DNA from: Bimuria novae-zelandiae CBS 107.79
Lineage: Eukaryota > Ascomycota > Dothideomycetes > Pleosporales > Didymosphaeriaceae
Assembly: GCA_010015655.1 (NCBI GenBank)
Contig: ML976701.1
Location: 1-64,000 of the forward strand
DNA: 64,000 bases
Direction: 5' to 3'
Under the pieces are notes generated by a model. That model worked only from the letters and a program-made list of their open reading frames with translations, made no database searches and had not been told where the DNA came from. Made by a program: the position numbers and the translations under genes. Of this stretch, positions 18,470 through 62,900 are shown one piece after another; the first letter of the stretch is position 1, and the number at the start of each line of letters is the position of its first letter.

Positions 18470-19010
18470 AAGGCTTAGACTAGATAATAGACTAGTTTAT
18501 TACCTCGGCACCTAAAGCGGCATCTGGATTAACCGACACAGCTGCCTGCGCCAACTCCTCACGAGCCTCTAGGGCTTCTAACTTATCCACTATGGATATC
18601 CCACGATTAAATAACTCTTGTTTCTTCTAACGTAATTTCTTACGCTAATTGCGCAGACGCGCCATCTTCTCTTGTGCTAGACGAGCACGCAGGAGTACTA
18701 CATAAATAAGCTCTTCTTCTACCCGAAGTTTTACCTCCTCCTTAGCCTCTAACTTTTCTAACCTTTCCAACTTAGCATCTATCTTTGAATAATCTGGCAA
18801 AGGAATATCCTCCGGCTTACATTTCTAATTGCTATACCGAACACAATTTGTGCACTTTGAATGCAACGACGACAATTAATAGGGTAATTGCTTCTTAGCG
18901 CAGTGCGAACAGGCGACTATAGCAAATACGCAATTTCGCTCGAGACGATTAGCTTGCGAATAACGGTATCGGGCGGATCGGGAAAGCGGCTTTGTGGGTG
19001 GTTGACTCAT
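18470..19010 (-). pseudogene. Antisense zinc-cluster-like/coiled-coil ORF of Gypsy-2
   Basis: The ATG at 19010 (MSQPPTKPLSRSARYRYSQA) lies 31 bp from the 3' LTR and is read antisense to the retrotransposon. Residues about 37-67 carry CSHCAKKQLPY then KCTNCVRYSN-stop-KC. If the Y is a RIP-mutated cysteine (TGT to TAT), the spacing is C-X2-C-X6-C-X8-C-X2-C-X7-C, the Zn2Cys6 binuclear cluster pattern. A strongly charged helical region follows (LERLEKLEAKEEVKLRVEEE), ending near PDAALGAEV. Only a few stops occur, all at Q/W-type positions. It is related in layout to the frames at 5410-5805 and 59378-59989. Function is unknown. Confidence 0.6.
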
Positions 19011-19185
19011 AAGGACATTGAGTCTGGAGGAGGGGACTAATGTTAGGATCCGTTATAGTCGTTTGCGAAATAGTGTTTCCACCTTTGTCAGCATCGGCTC
19101 GCTTGAATCCTTGGTCCGCACCCACACCAAATATTACTAGTAAACCTTAACTGTATACTCATAACCCTATATATATCAATTATGC

Positions 19186-52394: not shown

Positions 52395-52944
52395 CAAATC
52401 AGTGGCGATTTCTGGGAAAGTGAGGTTATATTATGTTCTGAGAACGACGATAGCAGCTAGCTAGGCTTTTGGCAGCAATCGAGAGTTTTTTTTTTTTTTT
52501 TGGGCAGGATTTGAAGCCATATCGAGTGAGAAACGTGAGGTTAAAGTGTAGGTGTTAACGCTCTATAGAGCTCTTGGAGGCTCGGAGACTCTGTTCCGCT
52601 AGTGACGCGCTAGCGTCTTGGCAAGTCACATAACGGCCGGCTTTATTGAGATTACCCTTTGTAGTAAATAGGTTGGAGTTATAAAGGGTAATCTTAATAA
52701 AGCCGGCCATTATGTGACTTGCCAAGACGCTAGCGCGTCACTAGCGAAACAGAGTCTCCGAGCCTCTAAGAGCTCTGTAGAGCGTTAACACCTATACTTT
52801 AACCTCACGTTTCGCACTTAATATGGCTTCAAATCCTGCCCAAAAAAAAAACTCTCGATTGCTATTAGAAGCCTAGCTAGCTGCTATCGTCGTTCTTAGA
52901 ATATAATACAACCTCACTTTCCCAGAAATCGCCACTGATTTGGG

Positions 52945-53407
52945 TATAACTAACCACGCATGTGGTAAGGCATTTCGACGCGTTAAAGATACTATAAAGG
53001 TCGACTTACTGCAGGAATTGCTAGCTGCAACACCTACAGTCAAGCAGTCTCCTCCTGGCAGACCTGTAAAGGTACGCGATGGCTCTACGCTAAGCGCAAG
53101 ACCACGGCATAATATTATTATATATGGCACCTATCGGGTGTATAACGCTGTTAGAGACCTCTGCGCAGAAGCTAGCATCACACTTAGTAAGAATATAGTC
53201 TATAACATTACTAGGGAGCACCGCGACGAGCAGCACCTATACGTAATAACTTATAGAGTATAACCTAAAAAAATAGCGCTTAGTAGTAATAATAAGAACT
53301 AATAACTATAGTACTATGCCTAGCTTAAGGCTAAAAATAACTTACACTTTCTACGCATTATATTTATTTACTATAATAAGACCTCTAAGTCTATTTGCGA
53401 GAGTAAT
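52945..53407 (+). pseudogene. Tc1/mariner transposase, right copy of the inverted pair (N-terminal part)
   Basis: Begins MGITNHACGKAFRRVKDTIK (52940) and stays open for 107 codons through the two helix-turn-helix regions to LYVITYRV. It then continues with stops to about 53400 (LRLKITYTFYALY). It ends abruptly at the Gypsy-4 LTR start (53408). The left copy shows what is missing. The open N-terminal frame with few changes between copies suggests moderate age. Confidence 0.75.
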
Positions 53408-53586
53408 TGTTAAGATCCTAAAGAGATAGCTAATTCCTAAGGGGCTAAGGTTGGTTCTCGGGCAGGAATACTGGTAGGACGAGAGAGGGTTATAGTAATA
53501 GCTTGCGCTTGTCACTAGGGCGTTAGTATTAAAGGTGTGTATAGCATAATTAAATTAACAAGGTTGCTTATTCAGATCCAAATAAT

Positions 53587-53843
53587 TATCCGATTACATG
53601 GCCCTTTGCACAAGCAAAGGTAGCTGGCGCAACCCTACATAAAGAGACCTTGCCAGCAGTCTGGTTCATCCGCACAATTCCGGGCGGAACAAAGGGCAAC
53701 TCTCCTTAATTAATAAAAATAGATTAGCGTATTAGTAAAAGACATAAGGATATAAGAGCCTTATATTCTTATAGAAATACAGACAACAGACATAATAATT
53801 TATACCTTAATTTATCTTATCAGATTACCTTTCTAATCTAATA
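53587..53843 (+). repeat. 5' LTR of the Copia element
   Basis: 257 bp, starting TATCCGATTACATGG (from TGTCTG) and ending CTAATCTAATA. It shows more C-to-T changes than the 3' copy. Confidence 0.9.
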
Positions 53844-53893
53844 ATTAAGAGTCTCACTGCCTTAACTAATACTACCTTATCAAGCCAATCGCA

Positions 53894-56800
53894 ATGGCCT
53901 TATTAACCCTTAAAGATCCCACAGTGATCCTGACTAACTACACGAATTACACACCATGGCTAAGATAGCTTAAAACAAGATGCCAATTCCTCAAGGTCTG
54001 GAACATTATCGACCCAGCGCTGATAGATGAACTAAAGCAGAAACCCGCCATGCCGATACCGCCGTTAATAGGCAACTACCAGCCAAACGCTATCTACACG
54101 AATGCGAACCTAAATAACGCACTAATATTACTATCTTATCTATCGCCGGCAGGCGCGAAAGCATACAAAGACGATAGCGACTACTACAAAGGATAGCTCG
54201 AGATCTATAAAGTCATGAATCGAGCCTATTAAGAAGAAAAGGCAGACCTTAATAAGGTAGTTACTTTTCTCTAGTTAATAATCTCCGCGTATCTCCAGAA
54301 CAACTACTGCATTCCCGGAGAAATAATTAAGCAATGGATAAATAACCTTATAATTACAATTAGGGTTGACTATTAAGACGAATACAGACAATTAAGAACA
54401 AGGTATCAAGAAGCGCTTAAGCTAATAAGAATAGCTAAATTATAGGCTATATGGCTCTCTGAGTACGATCACGCAGCCACAGAAGCAGAGACTAATTAGG
54501 TTCTAGAACTTTAAAGGCTAGACTTAGTGAAAGAAGACTTTATAAAGGTAGTTATCCATGTCGCACCTATGTAGGTAACGACCTTCTAGCAATATAGAAG
54601 CAAGGATGTAGCTGTCTCATAGAAGCACACAATAAAACTCTTTCGAGACTATATAATCCTGCAGCACCTAACTAAGGGTAAATAAAAGGGCGCTTTTGCT
54701 GCTGCAGGGTCATCTCTCGCTAAAGGTGGTAAACCCACCTAGGCCACAGACAGGGACGCCTCTCTTGTGGATAAAGCAGCATTATCTAAAAGTTAAGGAA
54801 GATCTTAGAATTATAAATAATAAAATAATAGTTAACGTACTAGAACTAAGCGGTTGCCTTAGAGCCTTAAGCTAATAGTAGTTAGTAGTAATTACTACCC
54901 TGCTTGTAAACTACGCTATAGTCTTTAAGACTGTTTCTATGCCTTTCTAGACAAGCAGCCAGACTGGTTTACACTAAACCCTCTTATAGTAAAGCTAGTT
55001 AAGCTTAGGCTAGAACATGATACCGACTTCTAAGAGAAGTTAAAAAGAACAAAAAAGGCTAAATTACAGGCACCTAAAATTAAACAATTACACACTCCTA
55101 CTCTACCTCGAATTACTAAGGCTAATAATAAATAACTAGATAGACGCAAGATTACTAAAATCCTAGCGAGCTTTAACGCCGCATTCTTCCACACCAACCT
55201 AAATACGTACCCATTACGACGCTCAGCCATACTTAATTTAGGCATAACCTGCCATATCTTTAACGACATCGATCGCTTTGTCTCATACTGTCCACCGGCG
55301 CCAGGAGACTTTATATAGGCAGGGAATACACAAATATAGATTAAAGAATACGAGAGCGTCTATCTTAACGTATAGAGTGTAAATAGCAATTAATTAATAT
55401 AGCTAGATAATATAGCCTATTACCCTAATCTGCTCTGCAACCTTATATCGTTCTAATTACTCCGGAGGCAAGGCCTTTAGTGGGATATAAGAGCAGACCC
55501 AACGACTCTAAAGAGAAGAAATAATACTATGCTAGCAAAACTCTAAGAGCTACATAGACAGTGGGTCTTAGAATACAAGACAAGGCTAGTAAGTAGTATT
55601 CCTACTAATGCTACGCACGCCACTCACAAGACTAATACACGCACTAAACAAAGACTACAGAAGGCAGACGCGTGGACCTGGCACCAATAATTAGGCCATC
55701 TAGGCCCTTAGGCCCTCGAACACCTCGTGCAGCAATCTAAGGGGGTAAGGATTAAAGGTCTCCCTATAGTCAAGTGTAATGCCTACGGCAAAGCAAAACT
55801 AAAACGGCAAATACGCCAGCAAGCCAGAGATCTAACAGAAGGTCCCGGCGAGCGAGTCGCAATTAATTTTCACGACTATAAAGTAGACAGCTTAACAAGA
55901 GAGAAGAGCTAAATACTAATTACTAACTAATTCTCTAGCTTTGCATAGGACTTCTACTTCAAGAATAACTACCTAGCACGGTTAATTATTAAATTACTTA
56001 GTACCTTTATACGGTTCATGGAAGTACAATATAATATTATAGTAAAAGTAATTAAATCTAATAACGAGATCTTTTCTATTAAGATAAACGTTAAGAAGTA
56101 GTGCTTAGCGTAAGGCATTAAGATTAAGCCTTTAGCACCTAATACTTAAGCATAAAATAGAGGAGCTAAACGCTTAGGGGGTGTAATTAAGGAGAAAGCG
56201 CGCGCGATGCAACTTAACTCTAACCTACCCTAGTAAATGTGGCCTAAGATCACCCGAGCCGCAGTCTACTTATACAATTAAACGCCAAACTACGCTAATT
56301 AATAGCGATCTCTATATAAAGTGTTCTTTACGATAGTAGCTTTTTAGAACGGCATTATTACCTAACCAAAGAAGCCTAATTAAGCTTACCTAAAAGTATA
56401 TAGCTACAAAGCTTTTACAATAACTAATAATACAAAACGCGGCAAGAGCAGGCTTCAGAAGCTTAACCCTAAGGCATAGATTAGCTACCTAATCGGCTAC
56501 AAATTAATAAATATCTAGAGAATATGGATTCCCTCTCTAGCAAAGACAATCAGTACTCGCGACGTAATATTTAACGAGGATACTATGTTCTTAGGCAAAA
56601 CTAAAGACCTAATAGAAAACCTTATGCATAGTACATTAGAAGAAATAGCGGCCTAGGTGCGATTAGTAGAGTTACCTCTCTTACCTTAACAAGAGCATGC
56701 CACTAAGTCCTTCTTTAAGGATAAGATAATTAGTAAAGCGCTAGAGGAAGAGGTTAAAGGAGCTCCTAAGTATAGGCAAGACAGGAAAGTTAGGTGCGAA

Positions 56801-58600
56801 TATCTAACACTTCCCTTAACGCCGCCACTAGTGACACTCCTTACACAATTAATGGCAAGAGGCGATTAAGCTATACCACCCTAAAGAGTGCAAACAGGGC
56901 AGTTGCAAACAAGCCCATAGGCCGCAGCCTTTATAGCAGGCACTAAAGCTAGCAGTAGCGGTAAATACAAAGGCAAGACTCTTAATAAGGCGTAGCTTTA
57001 ATAAATAATTACATTAGGTAAGAAGCTATATCGAAGCGTGCTTCCAGAGCCACCTACATGCTAAAGCAAGCTCGAAGATCACCCTCTTTATAATATATAG
57101 AAGGAAGCAGAACGTTCCTATCTATAGAGCCATAAGGAAATAAAGTCCTGGAGTAAGATTATAACCACTCTAGTAAAAGTGGCAGGCCATCAAATCCTCG
57201 ACTATATATAGGTATATACCTACAAGTTTAATAAGCATTATTAATTATAAAAGTGTAAGGCAAGGCTAGTAGTGCGAGGTAATTAATAGCGGCACCTTAC
57301 CTCGCAAGAAACCTACACTGTAATACTTACAGGATAATTATTCCGCATGCTTATAGTAATTATAGCTCGTTTTAACCTAGAACTTATTTAACACGACGTT
57401 ACTAACGCGTTTGTCCACGCAAAGCTGGATAGAGAAATCTATATAAGAATACCTTGCGGCTACTCGCGAGCAGGCATAGTTCTTAAACTATATAAAGCAC
57501 TATACGGACTGCGCATATCTCTACTGCTCTAGCAAAGAGAGTTCACGTCAACACTCCGTGATATTGGCTTTAAAGTAGTACCCCACGAGCTATGCTGCCT
57601 TATTAAGGACGGCATTATTATCTTCTTTTATATAGATAACATTATTATTACGTATAATAAGTTATAAAAGCAAGCTGCTGAAGCTGCTCTTATAATAATA
57701 AGTACTAAATTTACACTTACGGGTGGTAAAGACCTGTAGTGGTTTCTAAGAATTAAAATTATTAGGGACTGCTCGAGCAGAAAGATCTGGCTTTTATAAG
57801 CTTTATATATTAATAAAATATCGCGCCTTATTAATCACCATAAGATTCGCCATAATACCTTAATAGGTCTAATCAAATTGCTCCTAAGGACAGGACTAGC
57901 TAGTAAGGGTAAGATTAATAGATACCAGCGCAAAGTTAGATTAATTTTTTATACTATAGTTACATCTCGACCAGATATCGCCTTTGCAAGCTCCTAATTA
58001 TTACGATTCCTATCTAACCTAAGCAAAGAGCACTAAGCGGCTGCCAACCAAGTTCTCCTCTACCTTGCTAACACTAAATCACTAGGTCTTTAGCTTGGGG
58101 GTGTAGATACTTTGGAAGTGGCAAGTAACGCATCCTTTACTAATAACACACTTAACCGCAAGAGCTCGCAAGGATATATTATTAAGCTATTTAGTAGCCT
58201 AATCGCCTGGAAAGCAAACAAGCAAGATACAGTTACTATATTAATAACTAAAGCCGAATTACTAGCACTATCGTAAGTGGCCAAGGAGGCTTTATTCACA
58301 TCGCGATTACTAAAGGAACTAAAGATCAACCTCAGCAATTCCCTTATTATAATTAATTATAATAATCAGCAAACGATCCGACTTGTTGCTAAAGAAATTA
58401 CTAAGTTATAGACCAAGCTCCGTTATATAGATATCTATAATTATTGGCTAAGACAAGAGGTCGCACTAGGGATAATCAAGGTAGACTATTAACGCTTAAA
58501 GGACATGGTTGCTAATAGACTCACAAAGGCCCTACTAGTGAATAAATGGAGCAAGTTTCTGCATAAACTAGGACTTAAAGATATATTAGACAAGATCACT
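53894..58600 (+). pseudogene. gag-pol: Copia gag-pol polyprotein, RIP-degraded
   Basis: Starts MALLTLKDPTVILTNYTNYT. The gag part (to about 54900) includes a UBN2-like helical region (KVWNIIDPALIDEL, later ILQHLTKGK) and a degraded zinc-knuckle region near 54890. Protease at about 55215-55290 reads ILNLGITCHIFND (normally ILDSGATCHI). Integrase covers about 55660-56400, with a GAG-pre-integrase start HHLGHLG-like (QLGHLGP) and GERVAINFHDY. RT is at about 57180-57660: LVVRGN, HDVTNAFVHAKLDREIYI, LYKALYGLR, FYIDNIIIT (normally YVDDIIIT). RNase H is at about 58070-58600: KSSQGYIIKLF, then TKAELLALS and DMVANRLTKAL. The catalytic aspartates of protease and RT are partly mutated. Confidence 0.88.
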
Positions 58601-58710
58601 AATTAAGAGGTTGCCCTGCAGGATCTCCAGTAGAGGATAGAGGCCTTTAAGTTAGAATAATAGATAACTGCGAAGGTCCAGCTTGAGGATAAGCCCAAGC
58701 TAAGGGGGTG

Positions 58711-58967
58711 TGTCTGATTACATGGCCCTTTGCACAAGCAAAGGTAGCTGGCGCAACCCTATATAAAGAGACCTTGCCAGCAGTCTAGTTCATCCGTATA
58801 ATTCCAGGCGGAATAAAGGGCAACTCTCCTTAATCAACGGAAATAGATTAGCGTATTAGTGGAAGACATAAGGATATAAGAGCCTTATATTCTTACAGGA
58901 ATACAGACAACAGACACAACAATTTATACCTTAATTTATCTTATCAGATTACCTCTCCAATCTAACA
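58711..58967 (+). repeat. 3' LTR of the Copia element
   Basis: 257 bp, TGTCTGATTACATGG to CTCCAATCTAACA. It is the less mutated copy and is followed by ACGAT. Confidence 0.92.
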
Positions 58968-59377
58968 ACGATAGATTAATAAACAGGTTAAACACGCATA
59001 TCTAGAGGGATATTCGAGCTCTCTATATACCCGTAGGCTTTCTTCTGTCATCACCCGTTTTTGTGCCATCATGACCTTGGTCTGATGGTACTGGCATTAG
59101 TGATGGTACTGCCATCACTGTCTTGGCGTGATGGTGTGGCTTGGCGTGAGGGTACATCACGTGACCTCGGTAGTGCGGTCCCACTATGGGTTACCCCGCC
59201 ATGGCCGCCGTTGGCCCTCCTTTACTGCCGCTCGTTCAGATCCTAACATCACCTCCCCTCCTTCCAGATATCGTCCCGATATCCCTGCGCCGTGCCCTGT
59301 GGCTGCATAAGTGGCTGGCGAACATAAATACCGTAGGCTGTCCTAATTTTGTTCTAAAACTAATTGCCTCCTTAACC

Positions 59378-59989
59378 ATGCCAAAGGATCCTAAGCCCCG
59401 CAAAGCGCGCGCGCCTCGCAAGAAGACTTTAACCTAAGAATAACACGATTGTGCTGCTCGCGTTCGTGCGTCGTTAAAAGAAATGGCGTTTCGCTGCGAA
59501 AGATGTACAAAGAAAAACTTGTGGTGTTTCGTGGATACCGCGTCCGGTCGTTGCGTTGGTTGTATCGCCGTAAGCGCTGATTGCGAATTGTTCGTTCCCG
59601 AAGAGGAATGGGAAAAGGTGGAGCAGGAAAAACGTGAGAAGGAGCTGGAGATTGCTCGTCTGAAGGCTGAGGCTGCGTCGATAGGCGCTCGCCTTGCTAA
59701 GAGTAAAGTAGAGTTATTGGAGGTGAGGAGTCGTGAATAGGAATTTGCGCGTTGGGATTTGGCGATAGCAAAGGTGCAACGGACTTAAGAGGCGGATAGC
59801 TCAAGTGCGGCTATTCCGTCCCGAGACGTCGATCTCTTCGCTAATCCAGGCTAGTCACAGGCCAACAATCTTCCTCTCGATCCGTCGATGGATCTTCTTC
59901 TTAATGAGTTCTTAACTGGTTCTCCTCCCGCTGCTTCTGCTTCTTGGTTTAACAATGGTACTGCGCCAACGCTTGGCGACAGTTTCTAA
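59378..59989 (+). pseudogene. Zinc-cluster-like, coiled-coil ORF antisense to Gypsy-4
   Basis: ATG at 59378 (MPKDPKPRKARAPRKKTLT), 130 bp from the LTR, with 203 codons to TAA at 59987. The basic N-terminus is followed at residues 40-69 by CERCTKKNLWC and GRCVGCIAVSADC. The spacing is C-X2-C-X6-C-X8-C-X2-C-X6-C, exactly within the Zn2Cys6 rule. A long charged coiled coil follows (VEQEKREKELEIARLKAEAA), then an acidic/serine tail ending LNEFLTGSPPAASASWF. Only four stops interrupt it, each a TAA/TAG where CAA/CAG gives Q. Its 3' end overlaps the pol terminus tail to tail by about 40 bp. Transcription would have to start in or near the LTR. Zinc binding is inferred from spacing; the function is unknown. 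Confidence 0.68.
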
Positions 59990-62900
59990 GGTTTGCTTCT
60001 AGTTCCCATGTGTTTTCTAAGTGTGGATATCCCTTCCATTTAATTAGGTAGGTTCGTGGCTGATCCGTGTGTTATAGTATCTTTTCGACTTCGAATTCGG
60101 TTTCTTCCTCCGGCTAGTAATAGAAGGTGGTTTCGACTGGCGTCTCTGGGTCCGCTGGTTCTAATTAGTCTATATGGAATACTAGGTGTATTTTGGCGTC
60201 TAGTGGTAATTCTAATTAGTAGTTAACTAGTAATATTTGTTCGGAAATAAAAAATGGCCTGACCTTAACATAATCTAGTTTCTTGTGCTTTTTCTTCTAG
60301 GTTTAAAGATTTTTCGTAAGCAGATATGCTTTATCCCCCTTCTTTAGCTAAGGTGCCGTTTTTCTTTTTTAGTTTATGTAGGAAATACTTTGCTGTTAAG
60401 CTTTCTTGAGGTTCTCTTAGAGTTGTTAATGTATTTCTTTTATTTTTATAGCCGTGTTGATGGCTTCTTCCGTTCTAATAGCAGTAGGAAATATCTAATT
60501 AAAGAGATGTAGATGTCTTCCGTAGTTTGCATAGAACGGTGTATATCTAGTTGCTGCTAATATCTTGTTATTATATGCTAATTATGCTATTAGTAATAGG
60601 GAAATCTAGTTATTCTTCTGGTTGTTGCAGTAGATGCGTAGGTACGTTTCTATTATTTAATTCGTACGTTCTGTTTGTCCGTCCGTCTGTAGGTGGTATG
60701 CTGTCGATAGTTTTCGTTTTATTTTAATAAGTGCCATGAGTGTTATCTAGTAGTTTAAAGTAAAGAGTTTGTCTCTATTGCTAATAATTGTCTTGGGAAT
60801 GCCATGATGTCGTATAAGTCAATCTAGGATAAGGAACGCTAATTCCGTTGCTGTTATTGCCTTTTTGCACGGTAGTAATTCCACATATTTAGTAAATCTG
60901 CACACTATTACTAGTATTGCGTCGTAACTTACTCTGTTTGTGGGATCCTTTGACTTTGGCAATCCTGTGACAAAGTCTATTGCGATGTCTTCCTATAGTG
61001 CTGTGGGTATCTGGATGGCTTGCATTTCTCTGTACTTGGGATATGTTGCGTGTTTATTACGCTGGCAATCTGCGCATTTGCGTATGTAGGTTGTCACTGC
61101 TTTCTTAATTCCTTTGAAGCTGTAGTTCCTTTGGATTAGCTCTATTATTTTTCTGATTCCAGGGTGTCTATATACAGGGTCGTCGTGGTATTATTGTATA
61201 ACCTCTGTCTGTTGTTCCTTAGGTACTTCTCGTGTAAGTATAAGGAGTTAATTGAGTTCTGCCGTTGGTTCTAGGGAACCGTCGGGATTCTTCTTTAGTA
61301 TTATAGAGTAGGTTTTAACCTTTTCTCTATTATTATTTATTCTGCTAAGAGCGTCTGCTCGTCCGTTTTCCTTACCTAGGGTGTACATAATTTTGAATTT
61401 GTATTATCCTAGTGTTTCTGACTATCTTCCTTGTCGTTGGTTCAGTTCTTTCGTGGTTGTGAAACGTGTGAGGTTTTTGTGGTCTGTGAAGATTGTAAGT
61501 TCTGAGCAACTATGTGTATAGATCCTCTAGTGTTTAATAGCTTTTATAATTATAAGTAGTTCTTTGTCGTGTACTTTATATTGTAATTCTTCGGGTGTAA
61601 ACTTGTGTGCGTAGTATGTAATTAGGTGCTATTTACTATTCTTCTCTTATTTTGCGCATGCTCTGACTGCTAAGTCGCTTGCGTCTGTTTCGATACGTAG
61701 GGGTTTGTTATCCTGGAAGTGTATAAGGACTGGTAGCGTAATACATGCTTTTTATAGCGTTTGGAATGCTTGCTCGCATTCTTTTGTCTAATTAAAAGGT
61801 TTATCTTTCTTTGTAAGGTTCGTAAGTGGTAGCGTAATTCTAGAGTAGTCTGTGATAAACTGTCTATTAAATCTAGTAAATCTAAGGAAGGCTCGTACTT
61901 CCTTAAAGTTAGTAGGTAATTTTTACTTTTTTACTTTCTTAATCTTTAAAGGGCTTACTTAGATACCTTTAGTATTAATGACATGTCCTAGAAACTCTAA
62001 TTCTGTGACATAGAATTTATATTTTTTAAGTTTTAATTATAGATTGGCGCTGTCTAGTGCTCGTAGTACCGTTTATACGTGTTATATATAATCCTTCTCT
62101 TATTTAGAGAATATTAGGATGTCGTCGAGGTAGGCAATTATAAATATATTAAAGTAGTTCCTTAGTACGTTATTAATTATTACTTAGAATGTTGCTGGTG
62201 CGTTCGTGAGTCCAAAAGGCATAACTTGGTACTTAAACAGTCTATATCTGGTTCGAAAGGCTGTCTTTCACTCGTCACCTTCTGCTATTCGTATAAGGTA
62301 GTATCCGTCTCGTAGGTTGAATTGTGTGAATATCTTGGCTCGTCCTAGCCTGTCTCGAGACTCTTGTATATTTGGTAGTGGGTATCTATTCTTAATTGTT
62401 ATGTTATTTATCCTTCTATAGTTAATGCATGGACGTTGTGTACTATCCTTCTTTGTAACGAATATCAGGGGTAATGCTACTAGCGATTCTAACTTACGTA
62501 TCTATTACCTCTTAAGGGCTTTCTTTAAGAATTCGCGTGTCTATTAGAGTTCTTTTGCGCTTTGTCTATATAGTAGTCTAAAGGGTGGCGTCTTTCCCTC
62601 TTTAAGAATAATGCGGTGATCTTAGTGTGTATGCTTAGGAAGGGCGTTAGCTCCTTTCTCTTCCTAAAACAAATAACTCTATTCCTTATATTTATTAGAG
62701 ATATTAAGAGGTGTGCTGTTCTCTTCGTGCTTACGCTTTATAACCTGGTGGTTCCTGCTAGCGTCTGCCAAGTTAGTTTCGTGTTTATTAACTTCCAGTC
62801 GCGAGACTACGTTATTAATAGCTCTTTTATCTACTATTATGCTTTATTAATGCGTAGGCTTTGCTTATAATGCATAGTTATAGCGCTTAAAGGATAGCTT

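Follow-up and report, generated by a model that had tools for sequence, protein, structure and literature searches.

An antisense reading frame with a Zn2Cys6-like cluster in a Gypsy chromovirus of Bimuria novae-zelandiae, and candidate sites for its product in the long terminal repeat

The window analyzed here is a stretch of 64,000 nucleotides (nt) of Bimuria novae-zelandiae CBS 107.79 (contig ML976701.1, positions 1 to 64,000). Our subject is an open reading frame (ORF) on the strand opposite to a Ty3/Gypsy chromovirus, located between the end of pol, which it overlaps by 89 nt, and the 3' long terminal repeat (LTR). It begins with an ATG at 59378-59380 and ends with a TAA at 59987-59989 on the + strand; an original prediction, made from the letters of the window, had both the coordinates and the frame right. 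We find that this ORF is real, coding and under purifying selection. The ORF, its parts and the adjoining end of pol are the following:

59378-59989, + strand: antisense accessory ORF, 203 codons and a stop, with five internal stops in the window copy (from translation, alignment with sister copies and the ratio of nonsynonymous to synonymous change, dN/dS)
59495-59584, + strand: six-cysteine cluster C-X2-C-X6-C-X8-C-X2-C-X6-C
59570-59575, + strand: codons 65-66 (V-S in the window copy; A or T, then H or R, in 24 copies of the other class), which separate two classes of half-site described below
59600-59773, + strand: long helix, probable coiled coil, placed by transfer from the model of the homologue P0016
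59786-59986, + strand: acidic tail with the D-x-G-W-x-Q motif region, from homologue comparison
59901-59989, both strands: tail-to-tail overlap of pol and the ORF, placed by the pol stop at 59901-59903 on the - strand
59990-60098, - strand: chromodomain-like end of pol, recognized by eye from translations, not by Pfam

We read 33 copies of the ORF, designated like all loci by L numbers. The same frame end is reached in these copies, and a single one of them, L010, is without an internal stop; in 33/33 the pol frame runs 89-95 nt into the ORF before it stops, so that the two genes meet tail to tail. The original prediction had counted four internal stops in the window copy and ascribed all to CAA/CAG-to-TAA/TAG changes. 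We count five and, compared by eye with sister copies, not every one stands at a glutamine codon; the five resemble C-to-T or G-to-A changes, of the kind left by repeat-induced point mutation (RIP). RIP yields transitions only, and dN/dS was therefore computed from transversions only, in 32 copies; L005, which has indels at the frame start and a rearranged leader, was left out. The ratio is 0.46 in the ORF frame (bootstrap 0.33-0.62, obtained by resampling codons, which is no test over independent events since the copies are related), against 1.20, 1.65, 1.32, 0.72 and 1.33 in the other five frames. The excess of synonymous change to which the prediction had looked is thus present and indicates purifying selection. 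By part, the ratio is 0.42 in the N-terminus, 0.63 in the cluster, 0.36 in the coil and 0.63 in the tail. Values for codon positions 1, 2 and 3 of the coil (0.112, 0.067 and 0.168) stand in the order expected for a coding frame; the third-position excess is absent from the tail (0.019, 0.029 and 0.023), where divergence is low and pol overlaps. Averaged over pairs of copies, the transversion rate amounts to 0.034-0.038 in the two 100-column bins containing the cluster and to 0.108-0.155 upstream. In the coil it is as high as upstream (0.108-0.126), and the bins on the pol side are low as well, so that a low rate alone proves nothing. Separately, the stretch that holds the ORF (59000-60000) has a higher G+C content and weaker RIP indices than pol in 18/18 copies measured.

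The original suggestion is supported in so far as this antisense frame of a Gypsy chromovirus codes for a protein laid out like a DNA-binding regulator. The Zn2Cys6 consensus is C-X2-C-X6-C-X5-12-C-X2-C-X6-8-C, and the spacing that had been read in the window copy is exact. Homologous proteins numbered 11 in a first search, 87 in a wider one and 214 with a profile (120 among the matches listed); their named sources are Pyrenophora, Bipolaris, Exserohilum, Stemphylium, Alternaria, Sporormia, Ophiobolus, Decorospora and Lizonia, nine genera that we take to be Pleosporales. The cysteine pattern, whose conservation among relatives was at issue, is kept exactly in 144 of 155 retrieved homologues, and two of the other 11 are fragments without the cluster. 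The basic N-terminus recurs in the family (average net charge +5.9, n=110 homologues). For the coiled coil that had been proposed, the model of P0016 predicts a long helix at residues 73-130 (predicted local distance difference test score, pLDDT, about 97 for most of the helix), which is probably such a coil. The tail has a negative net charge in 112/112 homologues tested, and its D.GW.Q motif is present in 95/155.

Among the 18 top-ranked PDB chains found by Foldseek, the eight entries listed for the model are DNA-binding domains: Hap1 three times, Put3 twice, Ppr1, Leu3 and Gal4. The Bimuria protein resembles these regulators in its cysteine spacing and in the succession of cluster and helix, but differs from them in being element-encoded and in scoring below the Pfam cut-off. 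Against PF00172 (Zn_clus) the window copy reaches 13.5 bits and the best score is 20.8, with a curated cut-off of 21, and 30 of 38 members match at E up to 1. The cluster thus has the cysteine spacing of PF00172 but misses the curated cut-off, and for this reason we do not claim membership. As for other matches, Peptidase_A3 and others stayed below their own cut-offs, and APG6_N, matched by 5/38 members, was taken as a match to the coil. Sequence searches of the PDB returned a single match for the profile of A1, a ribosomal protein at E 3.5, and five for the window piece, the best being Plexin-A2 at E 0.024, which were taken as chance. By eye, the homologues P0092 and P0023 carry the cysteine cluster twice in one protein.

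In the genome of 77.4 megabases, the ORF family occupies at least 150 places: 150 of 320 candidates were scored, and 150/150 matched. Pol ends were scored for 150 of 1196 candidates, and a neighboring ORF was sought within 3 kilobases (kb). Such an ORF is listed at 93/150 scored pol ends, in all 93 cases on the opposite strand, at 592-805 base pairs (bp) from pol save one pair at 310; 57/150 scored pol ends have no listed ORF, and 57/150 ORF places no listed pol end. The DNA context in other species was sought in viral_contigs, where none of 100 pattern matches was confirmed, and the antisense placement is therefore demonstrated in the B. novae-zelandiae genome only.

On the other side of the ORF, from its ATG into the LTR, lie the elements of two candidate promoters (the last four entries are readings of the sequence):

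59323-59330, + strand: TATA-like box for the antisense ORF, 55 nt upstream of its ATG
59249-59265, - strand: polypurine tract adjoining the 3' LTR (polypyrimidine on +), limits set by eye
58969-59248, - strand: inner part of the Gypsy 3' LTR, with U3 and TATA, limits set by eye and by comparison with L042
59158-59163, no strand: CACGTG box in U3
59112-59134, no strand: U3 dyad CCATC...GATGG, 23 bp
59066-59088, no strand: U3 dyad CCATC...GATGG, 23 bp
59024-59029, - strand: TATA-like box of the sense LTR promoter

The box of the antisense gene reads TATAAATA, CATAAATA, TATAAGTA or, once, TGTAAGTA, and stands 54-57 nt before the ATG in 32/33 copies, the exception being the rearranged L005. With a pattern that was composed after the leaders had been viewed, a TATA-like box is found within 126 nt before the ATG in 16/20 further loci. 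Leaders of class A are 0.54-0.58 identical to those of class C, and leaders of class B 0.59-0.61 (four pairs each), so that the box is kept while the rest of the leader changes. The candidate promoter of the antisense gene is likely to be this box in the internal part of the element, with the polypurine tract on one side and the ATG on the other, rather than the LTR, from which antisense transcription had been supposed to start. L059 and L060 are without the box, other DNA occupying its site. An unrelated stretch, GTGGGTCGAGCAGGTATTTCC, perhaps a small insertion, is seen between LTR and ORF in L059, L060 and L033.

Tandem or paired CCATC..GATGG dyads sit just before the sense TATA in U3. Their units are of 18 bp (for example CCATCCCGGATGG and CCATCATTGATGG) or, in the A-R-S type, of about 19 bp with CCAGCCATGGATGG (length counted by eye). 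CGG is the usual half-site of fungal Zn2Cys6 regulators, and the CCATC/GATGG dyads differ from it. We examined 47 U3s, which represent 46 copies (L052 repeats L044); L049 repeats L013, and L010, L059, L060 and L065, which have no half-site within reach, were kept out of the shuffle test. The commonest 6-mer is CCATCC, CCATCA or CATCAC in 36/47 U3s. Its count is reached by at most 10 of 200 dinucleotide shuffles in 32/47, and in 31 of those 32 it is one of the same three 6-mers; in the other 15/47 more than 10 of 200 shuffles reach it. The CACGTG box, present in 43/51 loci scored, is a candidate site for a host factor.

The dyads fall into two classes by their half-sites, and these classes separate with the protein. 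Typing by the residues that precede Cys6 covered 51 of 52 loci (L018, at a contig end, was left out, and L005 has no Zn-type call). V-S copies have only TGATGG/CCATCA (6/6), and the others only GGATGG/CCATCC (41/41, 40 of them distinct); mixed copies were not seen, and four loci have no site in reach. The V-S copy L010, followed through its long locus L033, has three TGATGG-class and zero GGATGG-class half-sites in two LTRs. Half-site class and residues 65-66 thus separate fully, in 7 copies against 40. The leader, which lies between the sites and the protein, does not follow the half-site class: the leaders of L010 and L013 are 0.91-0.97 identical to those of the GGATGG-type L008, L017 and L023, and 0.73-0.75 to those of the TGATGG-type L001, L002 and L006. 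Leader classes were set by eye; class A comprises five V-S and five A-H copies, and class B six A-H copies together with V-S copies (L013, and L010 by its LTRs). For L007 the leader matches that of L001 (0.83) only slightly better than class B (0.77-0.81), and the gap is larger for L012 (0.83-0.87 against 0.74-0.77). In the cluster region, residues 65 and 66 are the only ones that fully separate the classes in 31 copies, and several coil columns also separate the half-site classes in this set. Counted from Cys1, residue 66 is cluster position 27. In 106 distinct homologue segments its entropy of 2.64 bits is the highest between Cys1 and Cys6 (the next is 2.08), and two positions outside the cluster reach 2.60; such variability would fit a residue that contacts bases.

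We consider it probable that this ORF, as an antisense accessory gene of the Gypsy chromovirus, encodes a dimeric regulator of the element's own LTRs, with DNA binding and an effect on transcription as its predicted activities. The protein would fold as a Zn2Cys6-like cluster followed by a dimerizing coil, its basic N-terminus would bring it into the nucleus, and the dimer would bind the U3 dyads in both LTRs. The protein bound at the 5' LTR would act as a switch for transcription of gag-pol. In the 3' LTR, the outward sense TATA and the antisense TATA flank the dyads, so that the antisense gene would be under the control of its own product as well. Because the tail is acidic, activation or removal of silencing is likelier than repression, and an activator or anti-silencer is more likely than a repressor. 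Each subfamily would recognize mainly its own sites. For a control of host genes, which the original prediction had also considered, there was no evidence, and no search aimed at it was made. More tentatively, we suggest that the element may encode a sequence-specific transcription factor that co-evolves with the operator arrays of its own LTRs, with a private code for each subfamily whose specificity would be switched by position 27 (His/Arg going with G, Ser with T), and with a divergent promoter by which antisense gene and sense LTR would be coupled. The V-S codons, however, are identical in both lineages (L001, L010 and L013), so that block recombination may account for the pattern and the independent events may be only two.

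Antisense ORFs between pol and the 3' LTR are already known. Excerpts of two papers (PMC7264820, PMC11963269) give as examples of the class called aORF-3R the brtn gene of Boty (Botrytis, Sclerotinia), gene23 of Grande, RIRE2, TRP28 of Retand and PvRetro13, and mention many copies and suspected nuclear or DNA-binding roles; according to an excerpt of one of them (PMC7264820), what antisense ORFs of LTR retrotransposons may do has yet to be determined. The Bimuria ORF is like these in its place, in being antisense to gag-pol (93/93) and in its many copies; brtn is likened by place and orientation, from its description. As to retention among copies, the ORF is listed at 93/150 scored pol ends, for the candidates scored as given above. 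It differs in its Zn2Cys6-like six-cysteine cluster, in a TATA-like box at a constant position and in dyads that separate with the protein type; the linked LTR dyads are what is new, along with the box. In the openly licensed PubMed Central (PMC) literature searched, no account was found of a Zn2Cys6-like antisense ORF in a fungal Gypsy element or of its LTR sites.

Among working systems, VANC of the Arabidopsis VANDAL elements is the nearest model. As far as excerpts of two papers describe it (PMC5735166, PMC10398659), VANC is an element-encoded anti-silencing regulator that targets short motifs, often arranged in tandem, in the non-coding DNA of its own element, and these motifs vary between related elements. 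Common to both cases would be an element-encoded regulator, here predicted, and repeated motifs in the element's own non-coding DNA that differ between relatives. The Bimuria case differs in concerning a fungal retrotransposon, an antisense zinc-cluster-like protein and dyads in the LTR promoter; moreover, DUF1985 and DUF287, the domains of VANC, are absent from the 24 Pfam families matched by 38 members of the Bimuria family (E up to 1). If the proposal is true, it would provide a fungal LTR-retrotransposon counterpart of the plant VANC systems and show how cross-activation may be avoided among related elements of one genome. The protein, its candidate promoter and its candidate binding sites can now be viewed side by side, and since natural variants of protein and site separate together, the question of the role can be reduced to simple binding tests.

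An antisense repressor, protein or RNA, that damps gag-pol expression and so controls copy number is the foremost alternative, and we hold it to be unlikely. HBZ can damp retroviral expression in this way. HBZ, of human T-cell leukemia virus type 1 (HTLV-1), is named as a retroviral antisense product in an excerpt of PMC11963269. The orientation of the ORF and its overlap with pol would also let antisense transcripts pair with gag-pol RNA. However, selection acts on the protein, so that RNA alone would be insufficient, and the acidity of 112/112 tails would be a better fit to activation.

Less likely still, the product could be a structural or chaperone protein (nucleocapsid-like, or a factor of the pre-integration complex), whose cysteines would bind nucleic acid without sequence preference, the dyads belonging to a host factor. 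Zinc-binding motifs do serve in nucleocapsids, and the Zn_clus cut-off of Pfam is missed, but such a role predicts neither the joint separation of half-site and cluster residues nor an antisense TATA-like box of its own. That the element captured a transcription factor gene of its host, which does nothing for it, we regard as very improbable: the layout is like that of fungal Zn2Cys6 regulators, but the 93 paired places share one orientation and a narrow range of distances, the frame is under selection, and the relatives are mostly unnamed or 'hypothetical', one being labeled a GAL4 domain protein by its source, a label taken as given. A chance open frame, kept open by constraint on the opposite strand, is rejected as next to impossible: about 90 nt at its 3' end do overlap pol, but the greater share of the ORF extends past the stop of pol, the dN/dS signal is confined to the ORF frame, and the cluster is conserved in proteins of nine named genera and of unnamed sources.

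Four of the 57 pol ends without a listed ORF were viewed. L072, L073 and L074 carry a different antisense ORF, and L071 a coil-like frame only. The second ORF has the spacing C-X2-C-X6-C-X8-C-X2-C-X7-C and a long charged coil-like region; all six cysteines are present in L073, one is changed in L074 and two in L072. Its family also occupies at least 150 places (150/150 scored matched), and the window has a copy:

18591-19010, - strand: second antisense cysteine-rich/coil ORF, with four stops, adjoining a polypurine tract; LTR start near 19041

The cysteines of the two families align, with an hhalign probability of only 13 (E 0.0022), and Pfam gave no match above the cut-off for the second ORF. 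Two of these loci extend as far as the LTR TATA; the short repeats in their U3 are different ones, 9 bp long and TGGGAC-like in L074, and AGTCGAGCA in L071.

Of ten pol-strand pieces submitted to Pfam, two gave matches: that of L046 (a sister copy) matches SH3_Tf2-1 at 45.2 bits (cut-off 30) and is also above the cut-off for the integrase p58 C-terminal domain, and that of L045 matches a zinc knuckle. Long loci were obtained for 19 copies, of which 18 were analyzed (L037 was left out); the partial or near repeat pairs of L043, L045 and L046 were not counted as LTR pairs. Both LTRs are visible in 12 copies: ten elements measure about 6.8-7.0 kb, L039 7.7 kb and L048 8.6 kb. From the 3' LTR to the start of the query segment there are 195-212 bp in 11/12, and 540 bp in L033, where other DNA lies between. 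By eye, the LTRs end in TGTTAG ... TTAACA, and several copies have matching 5-bp flanks. In the window, positions 58960-59308 are 97.7% identical to the L042 3' LTR plus 60 inner bases, and the 5' LTR runs into an N stretch outside the window. The remainder of the 3' LTR lies farther out:

53406-53582, - strand: outer part of the same Gypsy 3' LTR, severed by a nested element (92.1% identical to the L042 LTR)

The nested element (53589-58968) has end repeats of 256 bp (53589-53844 and 58713-58968), 92% identical, and is Copia-like by eye. Near-perfect inverted repeats lie close by, at 52395-52942, with 172-nt arms (94%) around a 16-nt center and 101-nt arms (93%) 346 nt apart.
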